NCBI GenBank assembly: GCA_938049385.1
Contig: CALIBQ010000040.1
Span: forward strand, 1 to 64,000
Direction: 5' to 3'
DNA from: an uncultured Anaerolineae bacterium
GTDB lineage: Bacteria; Chloroflexota; Anaerolineae; JACIWP01
Length of the DNA stretch: 64,000 nucleotides
Positions 6,249-40,275 of this stretch are shown piece after piece (the first letter of the stretch is position 1; every line of letters starts with the position of its first letter). The notes below the pieces were generated by a model that saw nothing but the letters and a program-made list of their open reading frames with translations, made no database searches and was not told the DNA's origin. A program made the translations under genes and the position numbers.

Positions 6249-7265
6249 TCAGCAGATGCGCGGCAGGGGGTCGCCGGCCAGCATGTCCAGCACCCGCCGC
6301 GCGCCGTAGGCAGTGCGCAGTACCACGCGGCCAGGATGCTCCTCCGTGACCCGGCCGATGACCGCCGCCTCTTTGCCCAGTGGATGAGAACAGAGGACCG
6401 CCAAGGCGCGTTCGGCGGACGCCGGCGCCACCGCTATCAGCACCTTTCCCTCATTGGCGATGTACAGGGGGTCCAGCCCCAGTATCTCACAGGCGGCGCG
6501 GGCCGCCGGCCGCACCGGCACCGCTTCCTCATCCACCTCAATGCCCACACCGACGCCGGCCCATTCGTTGAGCGTGGTCGCCAGCCCGCCGCGCGTCGGG
6601 TCCCGCATACAGCGCACGTCCGCCGGCAGTTCTGCCAGCAATTCTGCGATCAGCCCGTTCAGCGGCGCGCAGTCGCTGACTAGTTCGGAGTGGAATGTCA
6701 GTCCCTCTCGCTGTAGCATAATGGCCAGTCCGTGGTCACCAACCGGGCCGTTGATGAGCAGGACATCGCCGGCGCGCAGGCGGCGCGGCGACAGCGGTTC
6801 GGGCGTCAGCAGGGCACCCACGCCGGCGGTGTTGATGAAGAGAGCGTCGGCCGCACCCCGCTCAACCACTTTGGTGTCCCCAGCGACGATTTGCACGCCG
6901 GCCTGGCGCGCCGTCTCCGCCATGGAGCGCACCACCCGCTCCAACGTCTCCAGCGGCAGGCCTTCTTCCAAGATGAAGCCGGCGGTGAGGTACAGCGGCC
7001 GCGCGCCGGCGACTGCCAAATCATTGACCGTGCCGCAGACCGCCAGCTTGCCCACATCGCCGCCGGGGAAAAAGAGCGGTTTGACCACGTAAGAATCGGT
7101 GGTGAGCGCCAGCCGGCCGGCGCGCAAGCCGGCGTCCTCGATCAGGCCGGCATCCCCCAGCTCCGCCAGCGCTGTGCCGTCGAAATACCGCAGGAACACC
7201 TCGCGGATCAGCGCATGGCTCATCTGGCCGCCGCTTCCGTGGGCCATGAGGATAACCTGGCTCAT
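6249..7265 (-). CDS. hypE: [NiFe] hydrogenase maturation protein HypE (carbamoyl dehydratase)
   Basis: HypE receives a carbamoyl group from HypF on its C-terminal Cys and dehydrates it with ATP to the thiocyanate that supplies the active-site CN ligands. The 338-residue protein has the AIR-synthase fold motifs: M-A-H-G-S-G-G-Q near the N-terminus, V-N-D-L-A-V-A-G and G-P-V-G-D-H-G. It ends in P-R-I-C, the diagnostic C-terminal acceptor cysteine. The start at 7265 (MSQVILMAHGSGG) is chosen because its ATG overlaps the hypD stop as ATGA. The open frame further upstream is spurious. It is the last gene of the hydrogenase locus. Confidence 0.96.
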   Translation of the reverse strand: MSQVILMAHGSGGQMSHALIREVFLRYFDGTALAELGDAGLIEDAGLRAGRLALTTDSYVVKPLFFPGGDVGKLAVCGTVNDLAVAGARPLYLTAGFILEEGLPLETLERVVRSMAETARQAGVQIVAGDTKVVERGAADALFINTAGVGALLTPEPLSPRRLRAGDVLLINGPVGDHGLAIMLQREGLTFHSELVSDCAPLNGLIAELLAELPADVRCMRDPTRGGLATTLNEWAGVGVGIEVDEEAVPVRPAARAACEILGLDPLYIANEGKVLIAVAPASAERALAVLCSHPLGKEAAVIGRVTEEHPGRVVLRTAYGARRVLDMLAGDPLPRIC

Positions 7266-8353
7266 GCCGGCGCACCTCCGTACAGGTAATAGGCGGAGCA
7301 GGCCCCCTCGGCGCTGACCATGCACGGGCCGACGGGGTGCTGGGGCGTGCAGGCTTTGCGGAACAAGGGGCAGTCATATGGTTCCAGGACGCCGCGCAGG
7401 ACCTCGCCGCATCGACAGCCGGCCGGCTCGCCGGCGCTTTTGACCTCAATCTGGAAGCGCCTCTCGGCGTCGTAATCGGCGAAGGCCGGCCGAATTTTCA
7501 GCCCGCTGGCAGGAATGACCCCAAACCCGCGCCATTCGGCATCCGCCACTTGGAACACGCGCTCCAGCATGGCGAGCGCGGTAGGATTGCCCTCCGGCTG
7601 GACCCCGCGGCCGTAGGCGTTGAAGACGTCCGGCCTGCCCGCCACCACGCTTTCCACCAGCGCGGCGATGCCCTGCAGGATGTCGAGAGGCTCAAAGCCG
7701 GCCACCGCACAAGGGATGCCGTATTCTTCCGGCAGAAAGCGCCAGGCGTTGGAGCCGATGATGGCGCTGACATGCCCCGGGCCGAGGATGCCGTCCAGGG
7801 CTACTTCGCCGGCGTTCAGCACGGCGCGGGTTGCCGGCGGGGTCAGCTTATGGATGCTGAAGGCGCTGAAATTGGGGATGCCGCGGGCGTGGGCCTGGTA
7901 AACAGCGGCCGCCACCGCCGGCGCCGTGGTCTCAAACCCCACGCCGAGGAAGATGACATGCGCCCCCGGGTTTTCCAGAGCGATGCGCAGGGCGTCCGTG
8001 GGCGAATAGACCACGCGCACATCGCTCCCCCGGGCGCGAGCTTCCTGCAGGGTGCCGCGCCGGCCGGGCACGCGCATCATGTCGCCGAAGGTGGTAATGA
8101 TGACATCCGGCAGGCCGGCCAACGCGATGGCGCGGTCCAGGTCAGCGGTGGAAGTGACGCAGACGGGACAGCCTGGGCCGGCGCGCATGGTTACATTGGG
8201 TCCGATAGCCTGGCGCAGGCCGAAGCGGAAAATAGCGTGGGTATGGCTCCCGCAGAATTCCATCAGGCGCACCGGCCGGCGGGCCAACGCCCGGATGCGT
8301 TCGATCAGCCGCCCGGCGAGCTGGGGATCGCGAAATTCATCTACGTAGCGCAT
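7262..8353 (-). CDS. hypD: [NiFe] hydrogenase maturation protein HypD
   Basis: HypD carries a [4Fe-4S] cluster and, with HypC, assembles the Fe(CN)2CO unit. The 363-residue protein contains the signatures E-F-C-G-S-H-T-H-A near residue 30, G-P-G-C-P-V-C-V-T near 65, and the C-terminal Cys-rich stretch ending with PVGPCMVSAEGAC. The start at 8353 (MRYVDEF) overlaps the hypF stop as ATGA. The ORF extends 71 codons upstream inside hypF, but that segment is a shadow. The tight hypF-hypD overlap leaves no space for hypC, which commonly sits here. Confidence 0.96.
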   Translation of the reverse strand: MRYVDEFRDPQLAGRLIERIRALARRPVRLMEFCGSHTHAIFRFGLRQAIGPNVTMRAGPGCPVCVTSTADLDRAIALAGLPDVIITTFGDMMRVPGRRGTLQEARARGSDVRVVYSPTDALRIALENPGAHVIFLGVGFETTAPAVAAAVYQAHARGIPNFSAFSIHKLTPPATRAVLNAGEVALDGILGPGHVSAIIGSNAWRFLPEEYGIPCAVAGFEPLDILQGIAALVESVVAGRPDVFNAYGRGVQPEGNPTALAMLERVFQVADAEWRGFGVIPASGLKIRPAFADYDAERRFQIEVKSAGEPAGCRCGEVLRGVLEPYDCPLFRKACTPQHPVGPCMVSAEGACSAYYLYGGAPA

Positions 8354-10701
8354 CAGGACCCCTCCCGGGAGGCAAGGAAATGCCCCAGCACTGCCTGGCC
8401 GAGCGCCACACCGCCGTCGTTGCAGGGCACCTGGCGGTGGAGCAGGACCCGGAAGCCGGCCTTCTCCAACAGCGGCACCGTCAGGCGCAGTAACAGCCGG
8501 TTCTGGAAGCACCCGCCGCTGAGCGCGACCGTACGCAGGCCGGTCCGCTCGGCGATGGCCTGGCATACGCTGGCGATGATGTGGGTCGCAGTAAGATGGA
8601 AGCGCCAGGCGATGGCCGGCACCGGCACCTGCCGGCGCATATCGCGCAGGATGGCATCGAAGAGGGTTTCCAGGCGCACGATGGTGAGGCTGTCTTCCTG
8701 CACCAGGTCGAAAGGATAGGCTTGTGGAAAGCTGGGGTCTGGCTCCGCCAGGTGTTCCATCTCAATGGCCGGCTGTGCCTCGTACGAAGCGTGCCGGCAG
8801 ATGCCCAGCAGGGCGCTCACGGCGTCGAACAACCGGCCCATAGACGATGTAAGCGGGGCGTTCAGCCGGCGATCGATCTGCTGGAAGAGCAGGTCCAGGC
8901 GCTCTGCCGGCGCCAGGTCCGCCGGCACCGCATGCGGGCCAAGCAGGGTGTACATATAGCCGGCGGCGATGCGCCAAGGGTGATGGATGGCGGCGTCGCC
9001 GCCGGGAAGGGGCAGGTACATCAGGTGGGCAAGACGGCGCATGCCGGCATAACCGCCGGCGAACCATTCCCCGCCCCAGATACAGCCGTCCTCCCCGTAG
9101 CCGGTCCCATCCATGGCGGCGCCGATGACCGCGCCGTCTTCCGGACGCCATCCGCAGTCTGCCAGACAGGCGGCGATGTGCGCTTTGTGGTGCTGTACGG
9201 CGCCCACGATGGGGATGCCCGTCTGGCCGGCGTATTCCTGGGCGAAGCGCGTGGTCATGTAATCGGGATGCAGGTCATGCACAATGCCCTGCGGCTCCAA
9301 TCGGAACAGATGCCGGTAGAGGGCCAGGGTCTGGGTGAAATGCTCCAGCGTCTCCAGGTTCTCCATGTCCCCAATGTGCTGGCTGAGGAAAGCATACTGG
9401 TCCCGCGTCAGGCAGAAGGTGTTTTTCAGCGCCGGCCCGACTGCCAGCAGAGACCTGACCGGGAAGGGCAGTGCAACGGGGAAGGGGGCATAACCGCGCG
9501 CCCGGCGCAGGGGCTGAGGCTGTGCCGCCGGCGCGCTCCCCTCCCAAGTCACCACATGCCACACCGAGTCGTCGTAGCGGGAGTAGATGTCGCGGTTGTG
9601 GAGCAGAAAGGCATCCGCCAGGTGGCCCAGCCGGCGCGTTGCCTCTTTGTTGTCACAGGCGATAGGTTCCTCGCTGAGATTCCCGCTGGTCATCACCAGC
9701 GGCCGGCCTACATCCCGCAGGAGGATATGGTGCAGGGGGGTATACGCCAGCATGACGCCCAGGGTGCGGTGGCCGGGCGCCACATTGGGCGCCACATTGG
9801 AGCACTCCAGCCGCTCCAGCAGGACGATGGGGCACTGTGGGGAGGTCATCAGCGCCTCCGCCGCCGGCGTCAGCCGGCAGTGCCGGCGCACCTCCTCCAA
9901 ACTTGCCATCATGACGGCGAAGGGTTTGGCCGGCCGGCGCTTGCGCTGGCGCAGGAGCGCCACTGCGTCCGGGTTGGTGGCGTCGCAGGCCAGGTGGAAC
10001 CCGCCCAATCCCTTGATGGCCAGGATGCGGCCGGCCAGCAGTAGCTCTTTGGCGGCGGCCAGCACCGCCTCGGTGTCGGCACGTTCCGGGCCGGCGGCGC
10101 CGGGCCGGCCGGCGGCATCGGTCAGCCAGATGTGGGGGCCGCAGACCGGGCAGGCGTTGGGCTGGGCGTGAAAGCGCCGGTTCGTCGGGTCGTCATATTC
10201 CCGCTGGCAGTCCGGGCACATGGGGAAGACCCGCATGGTGGTGTTGGCACGGTCATACGGGATATCGGCGATGATGGTGAAGCGCGGGCCGCAGTTGGTG
10301 CAGTTGATGAAGGGATAGCGGTAGCGGCGGTCGGTCGGGTCGAAAAGCTCCCGCAGGCAGTCCGGACAGGTCGCCACGTCCGGCGAGATGAGCAGATACT
10401 GGCCGGCCGCCTGTTCGGAGGCGCGGATAGTGAAATCGGCGTAACCCTGCACCGGCGCATCCTGTACCTGCAGGGAGACGATGTGCGCCAGCGGTGGCCG
10501 CCGGCGCTGTAACTCCTGCACGAAGCGCTCCAGCAGTTCCGCTGGCCCCTCCACGGCGATGTCCACGCCGCCGGAATGGTTGAGCACCCAGCCGGCCAGG
10601 CCCATTTCCCGCGCCAGGTTGTACACGAAGGGGCGGAAGCCCACCCCCTGCACGATGCCGGCGACGCGGATATAGCGCGCTTGCCGCGAGGCAGTGGCCA
10701 A
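8353..10701 (-). CDS. hypF: Carbamoyltransferase HypF
   Basis: HypF makes carbamoyl-adenylate from carbamoyl phosphate and transfers the carbamoyl to HypE. The domain order is standard: acylphosphatase-like (V-Q-G-V-G-F-R-P-F near residue 20), two C-x2-C zinc-finger units (CPDC, CTNC, CPDC, CPVC), a YrdC-like domain (K-G-L-G-G-F-H-L-A-C) and a Kae1-like domain with H-H-K-A-H and G-G-C-F-Q-N. I prefer the TTG start at 10701. It lies two bases after the hypB stop, is preceded by AGGAG at 6-nt spacing, and yields a normal short N-terminus before the acylphosphatase domain. An in-frame ATG at 10731 would add 10 residues and overlap hypB by 28 bp. Confidence 0.95.
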   Translation of the reverse strand: MATASRQARYIRVAGIVQGVGFRPFVYNLAREMGLAGWVLNHSGGVDIAVEGPAELLERFVQELQRRRPPLAHIVSLQVQDAPVQGYADFTIRASEQAAGQYLLISPDVATCPDCLRELFDPTDRRYRYPFINCTNCGPRFTIIADIPYDRANTTMRVFPMCPDCQREYDDPTNRRFHAQPNACPVCGPHIWLTDAAGRPGAAGPERADTEAVLAAAKELLLAGRILAIKGLGGFHLACDATNPDAVALLRQRKRRPAKPFAVMMASLEEVRRHCRLTPAAEALMTSPQCPIVLLERLECSNVAPNVAPGHRTLGVMLAYTPLHHILLRDVGRPLVMTSGNLSEEPIACDNKEATRRLGHLADAFLLHNRDIYSRYDDSVWHVVTWEGSAPAAQPQPLRRARGYAPFPVALPFPVRSLLAVGPALKNTFCLTRDQYAFLSQHIGDMENLETLEHFTQTLALYRHLFRLEPQGIVHDLHPDYMTTRFAQEYAGQTGIPIVGAVQHHKAHIAACLADCGWRPEDGAVIGAAMDGTGYGEDGCIWGGEWFAGGYAGMRRLAHLMYLPLPGGDAAIHHPWRIAAGYMYTLLGPHAVPADLAPAERLDLLFQQIDRRLNAPLTSSMGRLFDAVSALLGICRHASYEAQPAIEMEHLAEPDPSFPQAYPFDLVQEDSLTIVRLETLFDAILRDMRRQVPVPAIAWRFHLTATHIIASVCQAIAERTGLRTVALSGGCFQNRLLLRLTVPLLEKAGFRVLLHRQVPCNDGGVALGQAVLGHFLASREGS

Positions 10702-10703
10702 GC

Positions 10704-11360
10704 CTATCTCCTGACGGCCGCTTCCAGCCATTCCAGCCAGGCCTCCATCCCCTCACCCGTGCGTGCCGAAAGGGGGAGCACCGGCGCGCGGGGGTTCAGC
10801 CCATGTACCAGCCGGCGGAATTCCGCCAGGTCAAAGTCCATGTAGGGCAGTACATCGGTCTTGGTGACCAGCACCAGGTCCACGAACTCGAACATGCTGG
10901 GGTACTTGTACGGTTTGTCGTGGCCCTCTGGCACGCTGAGGAGGGCGACGTTGTAGTCCTGTCCCAGGTCGAAGCCGGCCGGACAGATCAGGTTGCCCAC
11001 GTTCTCGATGAACAGGAGCTGAATCTCCTCCAGCGGCAGGGCATTCAGCGCCTGCTGGACCATAGAGGCTTCTAGGTGACAGCCGCCGCCGGTGTTGATC
11101 TGGACGACCGGGACGCCGGCCTGGGCGATTTTGTCCGCGTCCACCTGAGAGGCCACATCCCCTTCGATGACGCCGATCTTACAGGCCTCGCCCAGGGCGC
11201 GGATGGTGGCCAGGAGCAGGGTCGTTTTACCGGCGCCCGGCGAGGACATGATGTTCACCGTCGTGATGCCGTGCCCTCGCAGGCGCTCCCGGTTATTGGC
11301 CGCAATGCGGTCGTTGGCGCTCAATATCCGTTCCACCACCGGGATTTGCCGTCGGGTCAT
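10704..11360 (-). CDS. hypB: Hydrogenase nickel incorporation GTPase HypB
   Basis: HypB is a SIMIBI-class GTPase that delivers Ni to the large subunit together with HypA. The 218-residue protein has the P-loop S-S-P-G-A-G-K-T-T near 38-46, I-E-G-D-V-A-S near 64, the metal-site segment G-G-G-C-H-L-E near 92 and the N-K/T-K-D-like guanine motif T-K-T-D-V-L near 166. It lacks the His-rich or CxxCGC N-terminal Ni-storage extension that some HypB proteins carry. A good GGGAGG site precedes the ATG. It lies between hypA and hypF, all on the minus strand. Confidence 0.96.
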   Translation of the reverse strand: MTRRQIPVVERILSANDRIAANNRERLRGHGITTVNIMSSPGAGKTTLLLATIRALGEACKIGVIEGDVASQVDADKIAQAGVPVVQINTGGGCHLEASMVQQALNALPLEEIQLLFIENVGNLICPAGFDLGQDYNVALLSVPEGHDKPYKYPSMFEFVDLVLVTKTDVLPYMDFDLAEFRRLVHGLNPRAPVLPLSARTGEGMEAWLEWLEAAVRR

Positions 11361-11387
11361 ACAATACCTCCCGTGAGCCTCATCGGC

Positions 11388-11729
11388 TCACTCAATTTCG
11401 ATGCTTTCCACATAAAATTCCTTGCCGGCCCGCACTTCGCCCCCCATGGCACCGCACGCAGGGCATGTCCAGTCCCGCTCTGGCGGGTGGAATTCATGGC
11501 CGCATTCCCAGCACCGCAGGCGGGTAGCCACGCGGTGGAAGTGTAGCTTCGCGCCCTCGGCCAGCGTGCCGGGCGTCAGGATGTCAAAATAGAATTGGAT
11601 CGAATCATCCACAAAGCCGGCCAAATCGCCGATGACCAGATGAATGTCGGTGATGCGCCGCGCGCCGGCCTTCTCGGCGTGCTCGATGGCGATGCGCAGG
11701 ATGCCCTCTGTCACCGGTAGTTCATGCAT
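11388..11729 (-). CDS. hypA: Hydrogenase nickel-insertion protein HypA
   Basis: This 113-residue protein starts M-H-E-L, the invariant HypA N-terminus whose His2 binds Ni, and carries the zinc site C-W-E-C ... C-P-A-C near residues 73-93. It transfers Ni to the hydrogenase large subunit with HypB. The ATG at 11729 overlaps the stop of the upstream endopeptidase gene by 8 bp. The open frame continues upstream, but only this start gives the essential MHE terminus. Hybrid clusters sometimes use HypA-like proteins for urease, but the gene context leaves no doubt here. Confidence 0.96.
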   Translation of the reverse strand: MHELPVTEGILRIAIEHAEKAGARRITDIHLVIGDLAGFVDDSIQFYFDILTPGTLAEGAKLHFHRVATRLRCWECGHEFHPPERDWTCPACGAMGGEVRAGKEFYVESIEIE

Positions 11730-12237
11730 GCTGAGATGCTTCTGCCCCCGCCAGTTCCAGGATGCGGGCCACCGCGGCCGGCACCAGCGCCTGTGCAGCC
11801 GGCGAGAGACCCTCACCGAAATCAAAGTCGTGCCCCCGCAGGGAAAGCAGGATGCCTTGCGGCGCGCGGCCGTGCATCTGCTCCGCCAGAGCCAGCAGGG
11901 CGCAGGGATGCAGGATATGCGAGACCGTGGCCGGCTTGAAGCAAGCCTCCAGCGGTTCCTCCAGGATGGGCTGGGGCAGGCTCTCCACATGGGCATCTAC
12001 GAAGATCACCAGTTCATAGGGCGCGAGCATTTCCGCCAGCTCTGGGAGAAGCTGGTGCAGGGCGATGCTGTCAATACCCGTTCCGCTCTCGCCGAGGGCG
12101 TCCAAGCCGTCCTCGCCGGCCGGCAGTTCGGGCTGGCCCAAATGCCGGCGCAGGGCGTTGACCACCGCCAGGCCGACACCGTCATCGCGGCGGTATACGT
12201 TTCCGAATCCAATCACCAGCACCCGTCGTGGGTTCAT
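11722..12237 (-). CDS. Hydrogenase maturation endopeptidase (HyaD/HoxW family, M52)
   Basis: The 171-residue protein opens with V-L-V-I-G-F-G-N-V-Y-R-R-D-D-G-V-G, the M52 family signature whose Asp, together with Asp81 (F-V-D-A-H) and a His near 108 (S-H-I-L-H-P), coordinates Ni. These proteases remove the C-terminal extension of the large subunit after Ni insertion. The large subunit encoded at 12439 has exactly such an extension after its DPCxxCxxH motif. A probable promoter with TTGCAC-17-TATAAC lies just upstream (12273-12301), so this gene may open a separately controlled maturation operon with hypABFDE. Confidence 0.92.
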   Translation of the reverse strand: MNPRRVLVIGFGNVYRRDDGVGLAVVNALRRHLGQPELPAGEDGLDALGESGTGIDSIALHQLLPELAEMLAPYELVIFVDAHVESLPQPILEEPLEACFKPATVSHILHPCALLALAEQMHGRAPQGILLSLRGHDFDFGEGLSPAAQALVPAAVARILELAGAEASQHA

Positions 12238-12272
12238 AAGCCGATATAAAGGCTCCGCATCAGATTGTCCGG

Positions 12273-12301
12273 GTTATACTACGGAAACCCTGACTGTGCA
12301 A
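12273..12301 (-). promoter_or_regulatory. Internal promoter for the maturation genes
   Basis: On the minus strand TTGCAC (12301-12296) and TATAAC (12278-12273) are spaced by 17 bp. Transcription would start near 12266, about 30 nt before the endopeptidase ATG at 12237. It would allow endopeptidase-hypABFDE expression independent of the structural genes. Confidence 0.55.
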
Positions 12302-12340
12302 TTTGTTCAAAATCACGGGCTTCCCACAGATGACTGTCAC

Positions 12341-12404
12341 CTGGCCGCGAGTCAGCGGCTCGCGGCCAGTGATGCGAGCCGCTGGACGGCGGCCCGCATC
12401 ACTG
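12341..12404. repeat. Two adjacent, partly overlapping hairpins between hydrogenase large subunit and endopeptidase
   Basis: CTGGCCGCGA (12341-12350) pairs with TCGCGGCCAG (12360-12369). CAGTGATGCG (12367-12376) pairs with CGCATCACTG (12395-12404). The two 10-bp stems share three bases, so they compete. They occupy the 201-bp gap after the large-subunit stop and could attenuate read-through into the maturation genes or stabilise the 3' end. No clear U-tract is present. Confidence 0.5.
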
Positions 12405-12438
12405 TACATGATGATGTCAGCAGTGCTGTGGGTGCGGC

Positions 12439-13863
12439 TTAATCGCGCCGCAGGATATCCAGCAGTTGGCCGGCGGAGTCGTACAGCTCCACCACCATCG
12501 GCATCTGCCCCACAGCATGGGTGGAGCAGGAGAGGCAAGGGTCGTGGGCGCGGATGGCCGCTTCCACGCGGTTCAGCATGCCCTCGGTGAGGTTCTTGCC
12601 GTCAATGTAGCGCTTGGCGACCATGTCCACCGACTTGCTCATGGCCCAGTTGTTGTGGCCGGTGGCAACGATGAGGTTGACGCGAGTGAGCTGACCCATC
12701 TCATTGGTCCAGTAGTGGTGGAACAGGGTGCCGCGCGGCGCCTCCACACAGCCGACGCCCTCCCCGACGATGCCGGCGGATTCCGCCACGATGTCGGTGC
12801 GCAGGATGTCCGGGTCTTCCAGCAGTTCGCGGGTGCGCTCCAGGGCATAGACCGCCTCGATCAGGCGGGCATAGTGGAACCAGAGCGTCCCCTCGACCGG
12901 CCGGCCGCCGTTCAGCCGCTTCCAAACCTTCATCTCTTCCTGGGCCAGCGGCGTGCTGATGTGGGTGGCGACGTTCAGCCGGCCCAGCGGCCCGACGCGG
13001 TATGTGCCCTCCGGCCAGCCCAGCTTCTTGTAGAAGGGGAACTTGAGATACGACCAGCGCTCCACGTGCTCGGCGATGTAATCCAGATAATTGCGCGGGT
13101 CGAACTGGTCCAGCAGTTTGCCCTGGGCGTCCACGATGCGCACCTGCCCATCGTACAGCTCCAGCGCGCCGTCGGGCTGGACCAGGCCCATGTAGTTGGA
13201 CGGGAAGACGGCGAACTCGTTCATCAGGGTTTGGTTCTTGTCTGCCCAGTCCAGGAAGAGGGCGATGCCGGTCTTGGTGGTCGCCATGTGCTCGTCAATC
13301 TGGCTCAGGATCCAATCGCGGTCCTCCGGCTTGAGGGCGCTGTTCACGCCGCCGGTGATGGCCCAGCGGGGGTGAATGCGCCGGCCGGAGAGCCGGCGGA
13401 TGATCTCCTGGCCGTAGGCGCGCATCTTGACAGCCTTGACCGCCAGGTCCGGGTTGGCCTGGATGACGCCCACCACGTTGCGGATGGCTGGGTCGGCATC
13501 AAAGCCCAGGATGAGGTCTGGGCCGGCCAGCTCGAAGAAGTGCATGCCGTGCGACTGGATCATCTGCCCCATGTGCAGAAGCTCGCGCAGTTTATGGGCG
13601 GTGGGCGTCGGTTTGACGCCGGCGACCCCGTCGCAGGCCTTGGCGGCGGCCAGGTGATGGCTCACCGGGCAGATGCCGCAGATGCGGGGCGTGATTTCCG
13701 GCATTTCGAAGAACATGCGCCCCTCGCTGAATTTCTCGAACCCACGGAACTGATCCACGTGGAAGAAGGACTGCTCGACCTTCCCCTCGTCGTTCAGGTG
13801 GATGGTGATGCGCGCGTGTCCCTCGATGCGGGTCACGGGTGAAATGGTAATTTTCTGTCCCAT
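12439..13863 (-). CDS. [NiFe] hydrogenase large subunit (group 3, HoxH/HydL-like)
   Basis: The 474-residue catalytic subunit binds the NiFe(CN)2CO centre. The L1 motif R-I-C-G-I-C (C62, C65) and the L2 motif D-P-C-L-S-C-S-T-H (C443, C446, H449) supply all four Ni-ligating cysteines. The 25 residues after H449 are the extension cut by the endopeptidase encoded downstream. [11 protein letters not shown] and the overall length match cytosolic bidirectional (group 3) enzymes rather than membrane uptake hydrogenases. The gene follows the small subunit with a 38-bp gap. It catalyses reversible H2 oxidation coupled to the diaphorase subunits upstream in the operon. Confidence 0.95.
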
Positions 13864-13901
13864 AGATGGGCCTCCTTACAGACGTCGTTGGCGAAGCGGC
13901 G

Positions 13902-14447
13902 TCATTCGTATTTGAGCACTTCGCCGCTCAGAACCGGCTTGCGGCCGGCGAGCAGTTCCGTTATCACGTACCAGATGGCATCCGCTGAAGGCGGACATCC
14001 CGGCAGGTACACATCCACCGGCACCACCTCATCCACCGCCATGGCGCGGTCGGTCAGGATGCCAATGCCCTCGTCAGGGATGATGCCCTCCGGGTTGTGG
14101 GTGCTCTCGGTCTCGATGTAGCCGCGGCGCAGCACCTCTTCCTTAGGAAAGAAATTGCGCATGGTACAGATGCCGCCGAAGACGGCGCAGTCCCCCAGGG
14201 CGATGAGGATTTTGCAGTGCTCGCGCATCTCTTTTGCCGCCTCGACCTGGTGCGTATTGCTCACTGCGCCGGTCAGGATGCCCACATCCACCCCATCCGC
14301 CGGCGGGTGCTTCAGGTCGGTGATGGGCGATGAGGTGATTTCGGCATGCTCCAGCAGGGTCAGGATGCGCTCATCAATGTCCAGGATGCTCATATGACAG
14401 CCAGCGCAGGCATCTAACCATTCAGTGGCCAGTCGGATCTTGCCCAT
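13902..14447 (-). CDS. [NiFe] hydrogenase small subunit (HoxY/HydS-like)
   Basis: At 181 residues this is the short small subunit typical of group 3 enzymes. It has no Tat signal peptide and no medial or distal cluster domain. Ligands for the proximal [4Fe-4S] cluster are visible at C14 and C17 (D-A-C-A-G-C-H), C87/C94 (G-D-C-A-V-F-G-G-I-C) and C151 (L-P-G-C-P-P). The protein passes electrons between the NiFe site and the NuoG-like subunit encoded upstream. The absence of a signal peptide places the complex in the cytoplasm. Confidence 0.95.
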   Translation of the reverse strand: MGKIRLATEWLDACAGCHMSILDIDERILTLLEHAEITSSPITDLKHPPADGVDVGILTGAVSNTHQVEAAKEMREHCKILIALGDCAVFGGICTMRNFFPKEEVLRRGYIETESTHNPEGIIPDEGIGILTDRAMAVDEVVPVDVYLPGCPPSADAIWYVITELLAGRKPVLSGEVLKYE

Positions 14448-14521
14448 GTTCGTAACTCCTCGCTCGCGAATTTGCGTTTCACGTGCCGGCCTGTACGCTG
14501 GGTGCTTAGCCGGCGCCCGGC

Positions 14522-16231
14522 CTACAGCAGGCTGGCCAGCGCCTGGAGCACCTCGGCCTCACTGCGCACACCGGCCGGCATCTGCACTGCCGCCTGAACC
14601 ATCAGCTCTTTGCCTTCCAGGTTGGTGACATGGCCGTTCTGCTCCGCCCAGATGGGCGCCGGCAGGACCACATCCGCCTTGTCGGTCAGCGCCGACTGCC
14701 GGCTGGCCAGCACCACGTTGAAACCGCCGTTCAGCCAGCCGGCCAGCTCCGCCGTGCGCACCTCGGGAGCGTCGCCGGCCAGCAGGAAGACGACCGGGGC
14801 CGTGCCGGCAGTTACTGGCGCCAGGCCGGCCTGCAGGGCACCCCGGCCGTTGGGGCCTGGTTCCAGGCCGAGGAAGAGCGCCTTGTCCTTCAGCGTGCTC
14901 AGCGCCTTACACACCTTTTCCGAGGCCCCAACGCCGTAAATGACCACGGGCTTCTCGGCGCCGGCGGCCATCGCCGCGGCCTTGTCTGCCTCATCCTCAG
15001 GGAATACAGAATGCGCGTAGGCGGCCATGCCGTTGGGGGAATCCCCAATAAGCAGTAGGCGGGCGCCCTTATCGAAGGCGCGCTTGGCGAAGTAGCCGAC
15101 CACGCGGTTCTGCTCCAGTGGGTCGGCGCCGGCCACCACGATAAGGTCCGCCGCGGCCACATCGGAGACCTGGGCCGGCCGGGCGCCGGGGATGACCGGC
15201 AGGGCCGGCTCGGCGCGGCCAGCTTTGCCGCCGGCTTTGGCGAAGAGGCCGGCGAAGGCCCGCAGTGCCTCGTTAGTGGTGCAGGAGGCGGCCACGCCCA
15301 GGGCGCCGCCGGCTTTCAGCTTGCCGGCGACAAGCCCGAGCGCTTCGTCCCAACTGGCCGGCTCCAGCTTGCCGTTGCGCCGCACCATCGGCGTGGTGAC
15401 GCGCCCCCGCGTGTCGTACAGCGGCCGGAAGCGGCCGTCCACACACAGCAGTCCCCCGCTGGGACCCTGATGCCAGGCGCCCTCGACGCGAAGCACGAGA
15501 TTGTCATGCGTCACCGCCTCCACCGCACAGCCGACACTGCACTGCATGCAGGTCGTGGCCACTTTCTGCACGTCCCCTTTATGGCGGTAGCGGTAGGCGG
15601 ATTTGCGGTCAATCAGCGCGCCGGTGGGGCAAACCTGCAAGCAGGTGCCGCATTCGACACAGGTGGATTCGCCGAAGGGCACGTCGTGGTCGGCGATGAT
15701 CATGGAGTTGGCGCCGCGGAATTTAAGCCCCAGGGTGTGATTGGCGGCGATCTCCGAGCAGGCGCGCACGCACCGCCGGCAAAGGATACAGCGGTTCGGC
15801 TCGTAGACAAAGTAACTGCGGGTTGCATCCACTGGCTTCGGCTCATAAGTGCGGTTGTAAGTCCAGTGGTCGAGCTGATAGCGGTACGCCAGGTCCTGGA
15901 GTTCGCAGTCCCCGCTCATCTGGCAGTACATGCAGTAATGGTTGCGCTCGGAGAAGAGCAGTTCCAGCACGAACTTGCGCGTCTTAACCACCTTCTCCGA
16001 CTCGGTCCAGACCTCCAGTCCTTCGGAGACGGGAAAGGTGCAGGCCGGCTGGAGGGTGCGCTGTTTGGCAACCTCCACCAGGCACATGCGGCATCCGCCC
16101 CAGGCGGAGAGCGCCGGATGCTCGCACAGGGTGGGGATATCAACGCCGGCCGCGCGGGCGGCCTGCAGTATGGTCTGCCCGGTCTGGGCAGTGATTTTCT
16201 GACCGTTGATGGTGATATTCACCGTGGCCAT
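14522..16231 (-). CDS. NuoG/HoxU-like iron-sulfur subunit with a molybdopterin-oxidoreductase-like C-terminal domain
   Basis: The 569-residue protein has, in order, a [2Fe-2S] ferredoxin domain (C36, C47, C50, C64), a His-Cys [4Fe-4S] site (H98, C100, C103, C109), two ferredoxin-type [4Fe-4S] clusters (C-I-L-C-R-R-C and C-V-E-C-G-T-C-L-Q-V-C-P near 150-210), then a C-M-Q-C-S-V-G-C...C site as in NuoG N7/formate dehydrogenase, and a shortened molybdopterin-like domain to the end. It would carry electrons between the NuoF-like flavin subunit and the [NiFe] pair. HoxU normally ends after the ferredoxin clusters, so the extra ~300 residues make this closer to NuoG or HydA with a non-catalytic scaffold. 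The ATG is preceded by GGAGG. Confidence 0.9.
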   Translation of the reverse strand: MATVNITINGQKITAQTGQTILQAARAAGVDIPTLCEHPALSAWGGCRMCLVEVAKQRTLQPACTFPVSEGLEVWTESEKVVKTRKFVLELLFSERNHYCMYCQMSGDCELQDLAYRYQLDHWTYNRTYEPKPVDATRSYFVYEPNRCILCRRCVRACSEIAANHTLGLKFRGANSMIIADHDVPFGESTCVECGTCLQVCPTGALIDRKSAYRYRHKGDVQKVATTCMQCSVGCAVEAVTHDNLVLRVEGAWHQGPSGGLLCVDGRFRPLYDTRGRVTTPMVRRNGKLEPASWDEALGLVAGKLKAGGALGVAASCTTNEALRAFAGLFAKAGGKAGRAEPALPVIPGARPAQVSDVAAADLIVVAGADPLEQNRVVGYFAKRAFDKGARLLLIGDSPNGMAAYAHSVFPEDEADKAAAMAAGAEKPVVIYGVGASEKVCKALSTLKDKALFLGLEPGPNGRGALQAGLAPVTAGTAPVVFLLAGDAPEVRTAELAGWLNGGFNVVLASRQSALTDKADVVLPAPIWAEQNGHVTNLEGKELMVQAAVQMPAGVRSEAEVLQALASLL

Positions 16232-16276
16232 CGGTCGCTTTGCCTCCTTGACACGTTCATAAGTTCCCTCGGTTCA

Positions 16277-19200
16277 TCACGCCGGCTGGTGGGTCTTCTG
16301 TTGGGCGGCCATGACGGCGGCCTTGTCCTTGCCCGTGACCTCCAGCCATTCCAGGTCGCACCGCAGACAGCGCCGGCATTCTTCCCTGGCCGCCTGCTCC
16401 GACAGCCCCAGCTCGACCTCGGCGAAGGAACGGCGCCGCTCGGCCGGCGCCAGCTCCGGCATCTTGGGCCGGCGGGCGTCCACGTATTCCTCCATGTTGT
16501 AGGTCAGCTCAGGGAAGTGATACGGCGGGTTGTATTCCGGCTTGGTGGCCTTGCCGGTATGCAGGTAGGCATCCACGGACTGCGCCACCAGGTTACCCTG
16601 GGCCACCGCCTGGATCACGGAAGCCGGCCCCAGCGCGGCATCGCCGATGGCGAAGACGCCGGCGCGGGTGGTGGCGAAGGCCTTGTCCACCACAAAGGTG
16701 CTGTCGCGGTTGGTCTGGATGCCGTCCTCTTTGAGCCAGGAGAGGTCGGTCTGCTGGCCAATGGCCGGGATGACCACGTCGGCTTCCATAATGAACTCGG
16801 AGCCTTCGACAGGGATAGGCCGGCGCCGGCCGGTGCGGTCGAACTCACCCAGCGTCTGATGCACCAGCTCCACACCGGTGACCCTCCCGTCGCCGACGAT
16901 ACGCACCGGGTTGACCAGGAAGTGGAAGATCACGCCCTCTTGTTCAGCGGCGTGGACCTCTTCCTCGTAGGCCGGCATCTCGGCGCGCGTGCGGCGGTAG
17001 ACCACGTTGACCTCGCTGGCGCCCAGGCGCAGGGCGGAGCGGGCCGCGTCGATGGCCACGTTGCCGCCGCCCACCACGACCACGCGCTTGCCGGTCAGGT
17101 CAGGGGCGCGGCCCAGGTTCATCTCCCGCAGGAACTCGACGCCGGGCATGACGCCCTCTTTGTCCTCGCCCTCGATGCCCAGCCGCCGGCTCTTGTGCGC
17201 GCCGATGGCCAGCACCACCGCCTTATAGCCCTGGCGCATCAGGTCGTCAATGGTGAAATCGCGCCCAAGCCGCTGGTTGTACTTGATCTCCACGCCGGCG
17301 CGCAGGATGTTCTCGATCTCGATGTTGAGCACGTCGCGCGGCAGGCGGTAATCGGGGATGCCCACAGCCATCATGCCGCCGGCCACCGGCAGGGCCTCGA
17401 AGATGGTCACCGGGTAGCCCAACTGGGCCAGGCGCAGTGCGGCGGTCAGGCCGGCAGGGCCGGCGCCCACTACCGCCACTTTGTCGGACTTCGGCGTGCC
17501 GATGCGCGGCGGCGTCCAGGGGTTCTTCATCTCCTGGTCTGCCATGAAGCGCTTGATCTGGCGGATAGCGATAGGCTCATCAATATCGCCGCGCCGGCAC
17601 TTCGACTCGCAGAAGGCGGGGCAGACGCGGCCGCAGGCCAGGGCGAAGGGGTTACGCTCACGGTGGATGGTCAGCGCCTCGGCATAGCGGCCCTGTTCGG
17701 TGAGGGCGATATAGGCCGGCACGTCCACGCCCGCAGGGCAGGCGTTGAGACAGCGAGCGATGGTCAGTTCCTTGCACTGGCCGGCGGGGCACTTTTTGTC
17801 CTCGATGTGGGCGATGTATTCGTCCAAGAAGTAGCGCAGGGTGCTCATCACCGGGCCGGGCGTCAGTTGGCCGAGGGCGCAGAGGGAGCCGGCTTCCATG
17901 CCTTCTGCGATCTCCTTGATGGTCTCGATGTCCTTCATGGTGCCCTTGCCCTCGGTGATGCGGGTCAGTACCTCCAACATGCGCTTGCCGCCCACACGGC
18001 AGGGCACGCACTTGCCGCAGGATTCGGCCTGGGCGAAGGTCAGGAAGAACTTGGCGAACTCCACCATACAGGTGTCTTCATCCACCACGATCATGCCGCC
18101 CGAACCCATGACGGCGCCCACTTCTTTCAAGGAGTCAAAGTCCACCGGCACGTTCAGGTGTTCGGCGGTGATACAGCCGCCCAGCGGGCCGCCGGTCTGC
18201 ACCGCCTTGAACTTCTTGCCGTTGGGCACGCCGCCGCCGATGTCGAAGATGATCTCACCCAGGGTGATGCCCATGGGCACCTCGACCAAGCCGGTGTTGT
18301 TGACCTTACCGGTGAGGGCGAAGATGGCGGTGCCGGGGCTTTTCTCGGTGCCGATGCTGGCGAACCACTGGGCGCCGTTAACGATGATCTGTGGGACGTT
18401 GGCATAGCTCTTGACGTTGTTGATGTTGGTGGGCTTGCCCCAGAGGCCGGAGACGGCCGGGAAGGGCGGGCGGGGCCGCGGCTCGCCGCGCCGGCCTTCG
18501 ATGGAGGCCAGCAGGGCCGTTTCCTCGCCGCAGACGAAAGCGCCGGCGCCTTCCTTGATGTGCAGGTGGAAGCTGAAATTGGTGCCCAGGATGTTGTCTC
18601 CCAGGAAGCCGTATTCCTCCGCCTGCGCGATGGCGATCTTGAGGCGCTTGATGGCCAGCGGGTACTCGGCGCGGCAGTAAATGTATCCTTCGCGTGCCCC
18701 GACGGCATAGGCGCAGATGAGCATGCCCTCGATGAGGCTGTGGGGATCGCCCTCGATAATACTGCGGTCCATGAAGGCGCCGGGGTCACCCTCGTCGGCG
18801 TTGCAGACCACGTATTTGATGTCGCCGGGCGCCTTCTGGGTGAACTGCCATTTGAGGCCGGTGAGGAAGCCGGCGCCGCCGCGCCCGCGCAGGCCGGAGG
18901 CCTTCACTTCTTCCACAACTTCCTCGGGCGTCATGGAGCTCAGCACCTTGGCCAGCGCCTGATAGCCGCCGCGAGCGATGTATTCATCAATGTTCTCCGG
19001 GTCGATCAGGCCGCAGTTGCGCAGGGCGATGCGGAGCTGTTTCTCGTAGAACGGAATCTGGTGGTAGTACGGTACCGCTTTGTGCTCTTCCGGCTCTTTA
19101 TACGTCAGGCGCTCGACGATGCGGCCCTTGACCAGGGTCTCCTCGACGATCTGGGGCACGTCGTCGGCGCGCACCTGGCAGTAGAAGATGCCTTCGGGGT

Positions 19201-19387
19201 AAATGATCATCACCGGGCCCATGGCGCAGAAGCCGCGACAGCCGGTCTGGACCAGGCGCACCTCCACATCCAGGCCGCGCCGGCCCAGTTCGGCGCGCAG
19301 CGCATCCATCACCGCATGGGAGCCGGATGCGGTACATCCTGTGCCACCACATACCAGCACGTTGGCACGATACAGTGGTTCGGCCAT
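16277..19387 (-). CDS. NuoF/HydB-like flavoprotein fused to a GltD/NfnB-like FAD-NAD(P)H oxidoreductase
   Basis: This 1036-residue fusion starts with a thioredoxin-like [2Fe-2S] domain (C13, C18, C50, C54). A NuoF-type FMN/NADH core follows with G-R-G-G-A-G-F near 167-174 and an SLBB/[4Fe-4S] region (E-S-C-G-K-C-V-P-C at 455-463, C503). Where HydB would carry two ferredoxin clusters, it has a DPD/GltD N-terminal iron-sulfur domain (C546, C550, C585, C589, C593, C597). Then comes an FAD/NAD(P) oxidoreductase with G-A-G-P-A-G at 641 and a second G-G-G-N-V-A-I-D dinucleotide site. It ends with C-R-R-C-L-R-C. The chain therefore offers an FMN site and a separate FAD/NAD(P)H site. It is the likely pyridine-nucleotide module of the hydrogenase and a candidate for electron bifurcation. 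Confidence 0.92.
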   Translation of the reverse strand: MAEPLYRANVLVCGGTGCTASGSHAVMDALRAELGRRGLDVEVRLVQTGCRGFCAMGPVMIIYPEGIFYCQVRADDVPQIVEETLVKGRIVERLTYKEPEEHKAVPYYHQIPFYEKQLRIALRNCGLIDPENIDEYIARGGYQALAKVLSSMTPEEVVEEVKASGLRGRGGAGFLTGLKWQFTQKAPGDIKYVVCNADEGDPGAFMDRSIIEGDPHSLIEGMLICAYAVGAREGYIYCRAEYPLAIKRLKIAIAQAEEYGFLGDNILGTNFSFHLHIKEGAGAFVCGEETALLASIEGRRGEPRPRPPFPAVSGLWGKPTNINNVKSYANVPQIIVNGAQWFASIGTEKSPGTAIFALTGKVNNTGLVEVPMGITLGEIIFDIGGGVPNGKKFKAVQTGGPLGGCITAEHLNVPVDFDSLKEVGAVMGSGGMIVVDEDTCMVEFAKFFLTFAQAESCGKCVPCRVGGKRMLEVLTRITEGKGTMKDIETIKEIAEGMEAGSLCALGQLTPGPVMSTLRYFLDEYIAHIEDKKCPAGQCKELTIARCLNACPAGVDVPAYIALTEQGRYAEALTIHRERNPFALACGRVCPAFCESKCRRGDIDEPIAIRQIKRFMADQEMKNPWTPPRIGTPKSDKVAVVGAGPAGLTAALRLAQLGYPVTIFEALPVAGGMMAVGIPDYRLPRDVLNIEIENILRAGVEIKYNQRLGRDFTIDDLMRQGYKAVVLAIGAHKSRRLGIEGEDKEGVMPGVEFLREMNLGRAPDLTGKRVVVVGGGNVAIDAARSALRLGASEVNVVYRRTRAEMPAYEEEVHAAEQEGVIFHFLVNPVRIVGDGRVTGVELVHQTLGEFDRTGRRRPIPVEGSEFIMEADVVIPAIGQQTDLSWLKEDGIQTNRDSTFVVDKAFATTRAGVFAIGDAALGPASVIQAVAQGNLVAQSVDAYLHTGKATKPEYNPPYHFPELTYNMEEYVDARRPKMPELAPAERRRSFAEVELGLSEQAAREECRRCLRCDLEWLEVTGKDKAAVMAAQQKTHQPA

Positions 19388-34845: not shown

Positions 34846-34949
34846 GTTACAAGGTGGCTGTCACCCGGGAGTTGGCCTGCACAGGCAGGCTGTGCATTGG
34901 TTGCCGCGATTTCAACGCCAAGCAGTCTGTGGGCCAGGAGGGGAGAACG

Positions 34950-36224
34950 ATGGGCAAGCGAGGGCGTGCACCGCAGAAGGAGCATTCGCCGGCGGAAGAT
35001 GAGATTATCGTCGAGCTGGAGGGCCTGGCACACGGCGGTCTGGCCATGGGGCGGGCCGCCGGCCGCGTGCTCTTTGTCCCCTACGGCGCACCCGGCGACC
35101 GTGTGCGAGTGAGCATCACCGAGGACCATGATTCCTGGGCGCGGGCGCACATCCTGGAAATCCTGAAACCCTCGCCCCATCGAGTGGAGCCTCCCTGTCC
35201 CTATTACCCGCGCTGTAGCGGCTGTCAGCTCCAGCATATCGCCTATGAGAAGCAGGTCGCGGAGAAGCGCCGCATCGTACAGGACCAGCTCGCGCGGCTG
35301 GCGCATCTGCGCGGCGTGCGGGTGGAGCCGGTGGTGCGCATGGAGGACCCCTGGGACTACCGCAATTCCGCGCAGTTATTCCCGACCCCGGAGGGGGGAT
35401 TGGGCATCCGCACCAGCTTTCACACTGGCATCGTGCCTATCGAGGACTGCAAGCTGTTCCATCCCCTGCTCCGGGAAATCTACGAAGTGGTGGACATTGA
35501 GGCGGAGAAGCTCCGCCGGCTCACCCTGCGCGCTGGCACGCGCACCGGCGACCAGCTCATTGTTTTCGAGACAGAAGAGGGCTGGGTGCCGCACCTGTCC
35601 ACCGACCTGCCCATCGCCTGCGCGCTGGACGAGGGGAAGGAGGTGCGGGCGCTCATCGGCTCTCCGTGGATCACGGAGGAGATCGCCGGCCGGCGCTTCC
35701 GCATCTCCGCCCTCAGCCCCTTCCCGCCCAACTCCGACATGGCGGAGCACATGCTGGACCTCGCCTATGATTACCTCTCCCCAGAACCCGAGGATATCCT
35801 GCTGGACGCAGGCTGTGGCGTGGGGCTGTTCAGCCTTTCCTTTGTGGAGGATGTTGCCGGCGTAGTGGCGGTGGAGGACAACCCCTGGGCGGTCAACGAT
35901 TTCGTGGTCAACGCCGGCGAGGCCCCGGCCGGCGTCATCTACGGCACCCTGGCGGAGGGGCTGGAAGAGGTAGAAGGGCCGGTGGACCTGGCGGTCTTGA
36001 CGCCGCCGCATGAGGGGATTGACCGGGCAGTGGCGGAGAAGCTGGGCCGGCTGGCGCCGCGCCGGCTGGTCTATTACGCGGCGGACGTGGCGGCGTTGGC
36101 GCATGACGCGCGTTTCCTGCAGGAGGCCGGCTTTTCCCTGGCGGAGGTCCAGCCGCTGGACATGACCCCGCAGACGTACCTGATCGCCGTGCTGGCCCTG
36201 TGGGAGCGCCGGCGCAAAGGGTAG
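34950..36224 (+). CDS. RumA/TrmA-like RNA methyltransferase homologue lacking catalytic residues
   Basis: The 424-residue protein has the full RlmD/RumA architecture: an N-terminal TRAM domain (17-75), [4Fe-4S] ligands C83-x5-C89-x2-C92 and C167, and a C-terminal SAM-binding fold with D-A-G-C-G-V-G-L-F near 286-294. The catalytic residues are replaced. The D-P-P/A-R motif reads T351-P-P-H, the nucleophile of V-S-C-N-P is A378 (Y-Y-A-A-D-V), and the base of H-x-E is A413 (Y-L-I-A). It should not perform the standard m5U reaction. It may bind RNA and SAM or use another chemistry. The start at 34950 has GGAGGGG upstream. Confidence 0.85.
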   Translation: MGKRGRAPQKEHSPAEDEIIVELEGLAHGGLAMGRAAGRVLFVPYGAPGDRVRVSITEDHDSWARAHILEILKPSPHRVEPPCPYYPRCSGCQLQHIAYEKQVAEKRRIVQDQLARLAHLRGVRVEPVVRMEDPWDYRNSAQLFPTPEGGLGIRTSFHTGIVPIEDCKLFHPLLREIYEVVDIEAEKLRRLTLRAGTRTGDQLIVFETEEGWVPHLSTDLPIACALDEGKEVRALIGSPWITEEIAGRRFRISALSPFPPNSDMAEHMLDLAYDYLSPEPEDILLDAGCGVGLFSLSFVEDVAGVVAVEDNPWAVNDFVVNAGEAPAGVIYGTLAEGLEEVEGPVDLAVLTPPHEGIDRAVAEKLGRLAPRRLVYYAADVAALAHDARFLQEAGFSLAEVQPLDMTPQTYLIAVLALWERRRKG

Positions 36225-37691: not shown

Positions 37692-40025
37692 CTAGGGATC
37701 AATGGGTTCGAACTCAATGTCAATGCGCGCCCGCCCGCTCAGCGTGAGGCCCAGATGCGCGACGCCGACGCTGTCGAGGGAGACCTGGCGCTTGCGGCCG
37801 TTGACGCGCGCGCCGGCGATCTTGAGCGCCGGCGGGAAGGTGAACCACACCTCGCCGAACTGTGCGCCAGGCCGCTCGAGGTGCACCGTCAGGCGCCGGC
37901 GGCCGTCCTCCCCCCGCGTCCGCTCCACCTCTGCGACCTCACTCAGCGTCTGGGCGACGTGGAAAGTAGTGGTCAGGAGATCCGGCTCATCCGAGACCGG
38001 CTTGAAGAGCAGGACGACCGTCTCGTGGGGCAAGTGGCGCTCCAGGGTCAGGGTCCCCTGGCTGACGCCCATATAGCGGCGCGGCCAGTAATGGAAGACG
38101 TGATAATCGCCGGCTGGCAGTCCCATGGCCTGCAGGTCAACCTCGGTGGTCTGGATGCGGTCCTCCCAGTTGATGACCGCCACCACGAGCCATTCTCCCC
38201 AGGGCCGGCGCACCGGCAGGGCCAGGCACTGGGGAAGCTCATGCTCGAAGAGGTCCAGGGGCACGGCGGAGACGCCGGTAGGCGGCAGTATCTGCTGGAG
38301 ATATTTCAGCCGGCCCTTGCGCAGGGTCGGCAGGTTATCGCTGGATATGGTCAGCCCGCCCAGCAGGGCCACCACGCTGGCCAGGGTGCGGATTTCTCCC
38401 AGCGCCAGGTCGGACTGATCGTCCCGGTCGCGCAGTAGGACGCAGTCGGGGTCGTTGAGCCACAGCCGGCCGTGGGTGAAGTAGCGGGTGATGCTGTTGC
38501 GCAGGGCGTTCTCCGCCGCCGGCATGGAGAGGTCCGGCCAGAAGGGATGCCAGTTGGCGGCCACGTCCGGTCCCACCCGCATGCCGTCAGCCAAACCAAT
38601 GCAGGGGCCCAGCGGCGCGCCGCAGGCCAGCAGGAAGGCATCATCCCCGATGGCCTGGCGGATGGCCGTCAGGCCGCGCCGCAGGAGCTGGGCGCGGGTG
38701 AGGCGCGGGTCATACCGCCGGCCGGGCGCACAGCCGGCGAAGAGAAAATCAACCTTGAACAGCTCGACCCCCCATTCCTGGCGCATGGTGCGGAAGACGG
38801 AAGCGAGCCACTCCAGGGCTTCCGGCCGGCTCAGGTCCAAGGCATAGATGTCCCGGCCGAAGTGCTGCCAGGCGATGACCGGCTGGCCCTGCTCATCCCG
38901 CACGACCCAATCGGGGTGCTCCTGGAACGTCACAGATTCCGGCTCCAGGCCGAAAGGCGCCAGCCAGATGCCGGCGCGCCGGCCCTGTTCGCGGATGGCG
39001 CGCGCCAGGCCGGCCATGTCGCTGAAGCGCTCCGGGTGCGGTGTGAGCCAATCGCCGATGGCGCGCTGATAGCCGTCATCAATGAGGACATAGTCCAGCG
39101 GCAGGTTCTCGCGCGTCAGCTCGGCCAGGTTGTCCAGCACGTCCTGCTGGGTGTTCTCGCCGAAGAAGTAGTACCAGGTGCACCAGCCGGTGGGGATGCG
39201 GGCCGGCTGGCGCGCCCCCATCAGCTCTCCCAGGCGCTCGGTGTAGCTCTCCAGCAGGGGGAGCGGCTCGCGGCCGGCGGCGATGAGGAGGCGCTCCGAC
39301 TGCAAGCTCTCGCCCGGCTCCAAAGGGATATTATCGGTGTGGCAGAAGGCCCGCAGGGCGTGGAAGGCATCGGCATCGGCGCGCAAGCGGATCTCGGCGA
39401 GCTGGTCGGCCGCAGTCACGAAACCGAGGAGCAGGGCGCTGGCGCCGCGGGGGCGCCGGCCGCCGCGAGCGCTGAGCACGCTGAACCATTCACTGCTGAT
39501 TTCTCCGCCGGCGTCGGGGTTTCCGTGCGGAAGATGGTAGCGGGCGTAGGCATCGCTGTCTGGGGTGGTGTGGATGGACCCGCTCAGACGGCGGGCGAAG
39601 GCCGGCGACCAGGACTGCCAGCCGTTCTGGTAGATGCTCCAGCGGCGGGGGGCGGCGCCGAGGTTCAGCCGGCCGCCGGCGCCGGCGTCCAGCTCCAGCA
39701 CGTTCAGCCGCTCAACCTGCACGGGCAGGGTGCACAGATTACGGGCTTCCAGCGATATCTCGACGCTACCGGCCAGCCGCACGCGCCAGGTCAGCAGGAC
39801 ATGCTCATCCGCCTGGCTCACTTCCAGCCCGTCCGCCTCCACCTTATAGGCAAAGTTTCCTGGCGTGAAGGCGAGGTGCCGGCGAGCGCCGGCGATGGTA
39901 TAGGTCAGGGAAGCGCCGAAATTTGCCAGTACTGCCTCGCCCTCGAACACGAAATCCAGCTTGCCCGTCCCTGGATGAAAGACAAGATGCTCATGCAGGA
40001 ACAGGTCGTCGTCTGTGGAAGACAT
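37692..40025 (-). CDS. Alpha-galactosidase, glycoside hydrolase family 36
   Basis: The 777-residue protein has a beta-sandwich N-domain and a TIM barrel carrying the GH36 nucleophile D426 (F-K-V-D-F-L-F) and acid/base D487 (R-V-G-P-D-V), with W-Y-Y-F near 284 and V-L-I-D-D-G-Y near 313. It hydrolyses terminal alpha-galactosides (raffinose-family sugars), probably in the cytoplasm since no signal peptide is seen. The start at 40025 has AAAGGAG 7 nt upstream. A longer frame to a TTG at 40226 adds 67 residues before the family N-terminus and is not preferred. No sugar transporter lies beside it. Confidence 0.9.
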   Translation of the reverse strand: MSSTDDDLFLHEHLVFHPGTGKLDFVFEGEAVLANFGASLTYTIAGARRHLAFTPGNFAYKVEADGLEVSQADEHVLLTWRVRLAGSVEISLEARNLCTLPVQVERLNVLELDAGAGGRLNLGAAPRRWSIYQNGWQSWSPAFARRLSGSIHTTPDSDAYARYHLPHGNPDAGGEISSEWFSVLSARGGRRPRGASALLLGFVTAADQLAEIRLRADADAFHALRAFCHTDNIPLEPGESLQSERLLIAAGREPLPLLESYTERLGELMGARQPARIPTGWCTWYYFFGENTQQDVLDNLAELTRENLPLDYVLIDDGYQRAIGDWLTPHPERFSDMAGLARAIREQGRRAGIWLAPFGLEPESVTFQEHPDWVVRDEQGQPVIAWQHFGRDIYALDLSRPEALEWLASVFRTMRQEWGVELFKVDFLFAGCAPGRRYDPRLTRAQLLRRGLTAIRQAIGDDAFLLACGAPLGPCIGLADGMRVGPDVAANWHPFWPDLSMPAAENALRNSITRYFTHGRLWLNDPDCVLLRDRDDQSDLALGEIRTLASVVALLGGLTISSDNLPTLRKGRLKYLQQILPPTGVSAVPLDLFEHELPQCLALPVRRPWGEWLVVAVINWEDRIQTTEVDLQAMGLPAGDYHVFHYWPRRYMGVSQGTLTLERHLPHETVVLLFKPVSDEPDLLTTTFHVAQTLSEVAEVERTRGEDGRRRLTVHLERPGAQFGEVWFTFPPALKIAGARVNGRKRQVSLDSVGVAHLGLTLSGRARIDIEFEPIDP

Positions 40026-40275
40026 AGGAGCGCTCCTTTGCGGTATGGGGGCGGCGGGTGGAAGGGAACCGCTGGCGGATGATGCCGGGGAAGCGGCCGG
40101 CGAGCGGGTGCTGTGCCGGCGCGAGCACAGGTCTGCCAGGAGCAGGCGGTAGTACGCCGCGCTCCACCGCAGGAAGGCGCGAAAGCTGTTCAGCCAGCCG
40201 CTTGCGCGGGTCAACCACTGCTTCAATGTTCTGCTCCCGATGACTGCTGGATGCCGGCGTATTTCCTATTAACAG

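Follow-up and report, generated by a model that had tools for sequence, protein, structure and literature searches.

Why would a cell hold on to an RNA methyltransferase whose catalytic residues have been replaced? The question is raised by a gene at positions 34950..36224 (+) of the window, i.e. the whole stretch of 64,000 nucleotides of Anaerolineae DNA analyzed here. A Shine-Dalgarno-like AGGAGGGG (34936..34943, +) lies ahead of the ATG at 34950, and the 424-residue translation (P0001) agrees with the reading frame and residue numbering of the earlier note, in which the product had been described as RumA/RlmD-like. This identity is supported by a full-length match to TIGR00479, the NCBI equivalog model of RlmD (221.6 bits, cut-off 183.55), and by the predicted structure (pLDDT 93.5, pTM 0.90), in which the modelled fold is RumA-like, the closest folds being those of RlmCD (5zq0, TM 0.87) and of RumA with RNA and SAH (2bh2, TM 0.83). 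The match to PF05958 stays below the cut-off; P0001 has lost precisely the C-terminal motifs on which this model draws, which presumably accounts for the low score.

The scaffold of the family is kept, as had been claimed for the TRAM domain, the four [4Fe-4S] cysteines and the SAM-binding fold. The TRAM RNA-binding domain is found at residues about 17–75 (34998..35174, +; PF01938 E=1.4e-8, modelled strands 18–73). The cluster cysteines C83, C89 and C92 (35196..35225, +) and the fourth, C167 (35448..35450, +), occupy alignment columns with 100% cysteine in intact and dead homologues, where "dead" denotes a changed triad, and all four are present in 31/31 dead copies aligned. SAM motif I reads DAGCGVGLF (residues 286–294; 35805..35831, +), with the GxG (G290 and G292) kept, and the alignment with RumA places E309 (35874..35876, +) at the position of the ribose-binding acid, E333 in RlmCD (PMC5614603); this position is E or D in all dead copies.

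What has disappeared is the active site. When P0001 is aligned with RumA of E. coli and 150 homologues, T351, A378 and A413 occupy the columns of the invariant Asp, Cys and Glu, just as the earlier note had it: D-P-P-R is replaced by T351-P-P-H354 (36000..36011, +; R354→H), the nucleophilic Cys by A378 (36081..36083, +), and the segment DMTPQTYLIA (residues 404–413; 36159..36188, +) carries F406→T, H411→L and E413→A, the last at the general base. The loss exceeds the triad, with F257, Q259, R354, F406 and H411 replaced too; the conserved FFQVN loop reads PFPPN (residues 257–261; 35718..35732, +; F257→P, Q259→P), and F257 is the equivalent of F281 of RlmCD (PMC5614603). Comparison of 118 intact with 31 dead sequences revealed that F257, Q259, D351, R354, C378, F406, H411 and E413 are 99–100% conserved in the former and mostly or wholly replaced in the latter, whereas C83, C89, C92, C167, F42, R78, H96, Y137, G292, G356, D386, D404 and P407 vary hardly or not at all in either group. 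Judged by sequence, the whole uracil-binding and catalytic set of P0001 is gone, and from these residues we strongly infer that the protein has lost m5U chemistry. In RlmCD, mutation at the equivalents of D351 and F257 cuts activity strongly, D381A retaining about 10% and F281A losing the greater part, yet both variants bind SAM normally (PMC5614603), so loss of those residues need not abolish SAM binding.

A contig scan yielded two relatives only. The two other genomes of the window genus carry S/A/A at the triad, with 93% identity to P0001, and the gene order GatB-GDH-RlmD (on the upstream side) is common to the genus. Counted pairwise by the simple Nei-Gojobori method, dN/dS comes to 0.08 for 403 codons and to 0.08–0.09 within the methyltransferase domain; values for dead pairs (0.08–0.23) lie inside the range of intact pairs (0.04–0.24). 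Because both other genomes have S/A/A and dN/dS is 0.08, the loss is neither an error nor the mark of a decaying gene: the agreement of three genomes rules out a sequencing error or an isolated mutation, and the low ratio together with the open frame in all three rules out a pseudogene. Maintenance of P0001 by purifying selection after the loss of the triad is well supported.

Candidates that could make up for the lost activity were rejected as well. A second, active paralogue, which the earlier note had kept in mind, is ruled out: no further RlmD-family gene passes the search in the three window-genus genomes, where the family is single, and a second full-length homologue, intact or otherwise, was found in 0/33 dead genomes searched. 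Replacement of m5U1939 formation by an RlmFO/TrmFO enzyme is ruled out by the lack of a second TrmFO-family gene, one full-length TrmFO being present in each window-genus genome, one in 29/30 other dead genomes and two in 0/30. Substitution of the target base is ruled out where 23S rRNA is present, these genes being missing from many of the assemblies: GCGAAAUUCCUUG, the stretch surrounding U1939, is found intact in two genomes of the window genus (G000 and G001), and all 23S matches, which came from only 13/52 genomes, have U at position 1939. One 23S rRNA gene of the class (G012) is split at TAAGGTA/GCGAAATT, adjoining U1939, by a group I intron (L045:3250-3950; RF00028, 52.7 bits) with an ORF resembling LAGLIDADG homing endonucleases, and a second similar ORF at 2497-3009 may point to two insertions. 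The gene neighborhood of P0001 gave no hint of function, only the upstream GatB-GDH order being common within the genus. Elsewhere the window contains a [NiFe] hydrogenase cluster (6249-19387, -) with HypE, HypD, HypF, HypB, a Vhu/Mvh-like large subunit, a small-subunit-like ORF, a HoxU/NuoG-like protein and a 1036-aa fusion of NuoF with a flavoprotein resembling the glutamate synthase small subunit, as well as an 844-aa protein (37692-40226, -) with partial matches only to Melibiase (alpha-galactosidase) and GH31.

The class-wide search and homologue retrieval yielded 211 distinct sequences, mostly from metagenome assemblies. The catalytic Cys is missing in 33/169 Anaerolineae homologues vs 0/41 from other Chloroflexota, the former fraction being no estimate of class frequency because the sample was ordered by similarity to P0001. 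Dead copies, encoded in open reading frames, make up 3/3 sequences of family f1 and 16/17 of f15, 9/9 of f35, 2/6 of f31, 1/5 of f17, 1/3 of f26 and 1/1 of f20. The Cys-to-Ala pattern, whose conservation across the phylum the earlier note proposed to test, holds in all three window-genus genomes and does not extend to most other Anaerolineae or to any of the 41 homologues from outside the class, which are intact; likewise, close relatives with the normal Cys and Glu, which the earlier note would have taken as a refutation, are found outside the genus and not within it. Replacements at the triad vary by lineage (TAA, THT, NSD, DDQ), and since those of f35 (N/S/D) are conservative, inactivity is less certain in that family. 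Two cut or interrupted copies, L103 (G020) and L107 (G243), in which the RlmD frame stops before the catalytic motifs, were kept out of the counts; they may reflect contig or frame errors, or truncation after loss of catalysis. The sole intact D/C/E copy of the otherwise dead f15, L108 (G102), groups near f31 rather than f15 and could be either an active gene re-acquired by transfer or an assembly contamination; G209, which shares the genus code of G102, has T/H/T. No RlmD match was detectable in 71/396 Anaerolineae genomes in the class search, some of them at least 97% complete (e.g. f38 g38 and f4 g40).

The SPFPxN and TPP motifs common to dead sequences suggested one ancient dead subfamily, which was ruled out after the motif columns had been masked: the masked tree requires at least 7 separate losses, all forced by well-supported branches, and a single origin of the dead copies is rejected by the AU test (p = 1.3e-5). 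A larger, quicker tree gives seven losses, at least six of them forced; the two dead copies of f31, which stand together in the masked tree, are apart there, and the window genus sits on a long stem. Since the same loss occurred at least 7 times in Anaerolineae, it is not an isolated mutation. Convergence among the dead lineages is partial, with Q259→P in dead copies of f1, f15, f17, f31 and f26 and Q often still present in f35.

The best explanation, to which we assign a probability of roughly 55%, is that P0001 is a pseudo-methyltransferase descended from RlmD, the 23S rRNA m5U1939 methyltransferase with SAM and a [4Fe-4S] cluster, and kept for a non-catalytic role on RNA. U1939 would be left unmethylated in species with a dead copy, and the protein, as selection and its relatives suggest, would be retained for binding RNA and for aiding 23S rRNA folding or large-subunit assembly; a tRNA is a possible alternative substrate. 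The kept TRAM domain and the selection lead us to infer an RNA-chaperone activity of the TrmA kind. SAM or SAH may still be bound as a structural or sensing ligand. Of the "selected new role" proposed earlier, the loss of m5U chemistry and the selection (dN/dS 0.08–0.09, three genomes) stand, but an old role is likelier than a new one, because one and the same protein has lost its catalytic residues many times along similar lines; the non-catalytic activity would be one that RlmD already had beside methylation.

Such a separation has precedents among related and other RNA methyltransferases. The tRNA-folding activity of TrmA does not depend on tRNA modification, and a tRNA mutant is rescued by Trm2 devoid of catalysis (reviewed in PMC11301382), so that RNA folding is separable from methylation in these related m5U54 tRNA methyltransferases, although TrmA and Trm2, unlike P0001, keep catalysis. 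Bovine and rat TRMT2B, members of the same superfamily, have lost the catalytic Cys with the rest conserved and are predicted to be inactive, and a chaperone role has been proposed for them (PMC7237155); they are eukaryotic and mitochondrial, whereas P0001 is a bacterial RlmD in which the general base, the aspartate and the uracil pocket are lost too, with at least 7 origins of the loss. Catalysis by METTL15 is dispensable in mitoribosome assembly (PMC11197891). RlmD/RumA of E. coli itself (PDB 1UWV and 2BH2) resembles P0001 in full-length homology, the TRAM domain, the four cysteines, the fold and the single-copy gene, the difference being the active-site Asp, Cys and Glu and the F/Q/R/F/H residues of the uracil pocket, which P0001 lacks. 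RlmCD of S. pneumoniae (SP_1029; PDB 5XJ1, 5XJ2 and 5ZQ0), with the closest solved fold, is its opposite: active and devoid of the cluster cysteines. TrmFO-like proteins of mycoplasmas are bacterial relatives of an m5U methylase with both catalytic cysteines replaced (PMC7226160), but they belong to an unrelated folate/flavin family and are paralogues beside other copies. No report of a catalytically dead RlmD in bacteria was found in the open-licence literature.

Some observations count against a role in folding or assembly. An E. coli rlmD deletion causes no build-up of ribosome assembly intermediates (PMC7056703), the lineage-varied replacements look like those expected after loss of constraint, and the absence of RlmD from many class members means that some lineages can do without any such role. 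A bolder proposal, which we consider less probable than not, is that the selected function of RlmD in Anaerolineae is that of a 23S rRNA assembly factor with a [4Fe-4S] cluster and a SAM pocket rather than methylation, and that at least 7 lineages, with some replacements in common (Q259→P in most of the lineages), independently dropped catalysis and turned it into a dedicated non-catalytic factor.

Among the rivals, the one that survives best, though unlikely, would make the protein not a folding factor but a partner or regulatory subunit, i.e. a [4Fe-4S] sensor or a scaffold that directs another enzyme to RNA. It would explain why the cluster cysteines are fully kept despite the catalytic loss in a fold that, according to the alignment with S. 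pneumoniae RlmCD, can do without them, yet the genomic neighborhood offers no conserved partner gene, the GatB-GDH order upstream being all that the genus has in common. Somewhat less probable is methylation of RNA or another substrate by a different chemistry. Amino-methyltransferases carry [DNS]PP[YFW], and the S/T-P-P-H motif lies at the same site, P352-P353 being kept in nearly all dead copies and D351 changed to T, S or N in most, within a SAM site that is largely intact (GxG and E309); but the fourth residue of the motif is A, D, E or H across the dead lineages and not aromatic, and the residues at 378 and 413 vary by lineage with no common new polar set. Slightly poorer still are the prospects of a slowly decaying leftover, whose active site would have drifted once methylation had become dispensable: the many class members that lack the gene and the long stem of the window genus fit this scenario, which is contradicted by dN/dS of 0.08 after the loss, the retention of the four cysteines and the fold, the open frames, and whole families that hold a dead copy (16/17 in f15, 9/9 in f35). 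Residual formation of m5U1939 or m5U747, weakly or with another nucleophile, is very improbable, despite the conservative N/S/D of f35 and the about 10% activity of RlmCD D381A (PMC5614603), since the mechanism needs Cys and Glu (PMC7237155) and the window genus has Ala at both nucleophile and base, with F406 and H411 gone.

Retention of P0001 for a non-catalytic role would bear on a wider problem. Deletion of most rRNA methyltransferases has little effect, which makes their strong conservation puzzling; where the chemistry has repeatedly been removed and the protein kept, as in this class, the two functions are separated, and the paired intact and dead orthologues inside one family (f31, f17 and f26) make the matter directly testable. 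For whole families, automatic annotation as "m5U1939 methyltransferase RlmD" is likely to be in error. Repeated loss of the triad with strong selection on the rest of the protein suggests that these cells need the protein rather than the methyl group.
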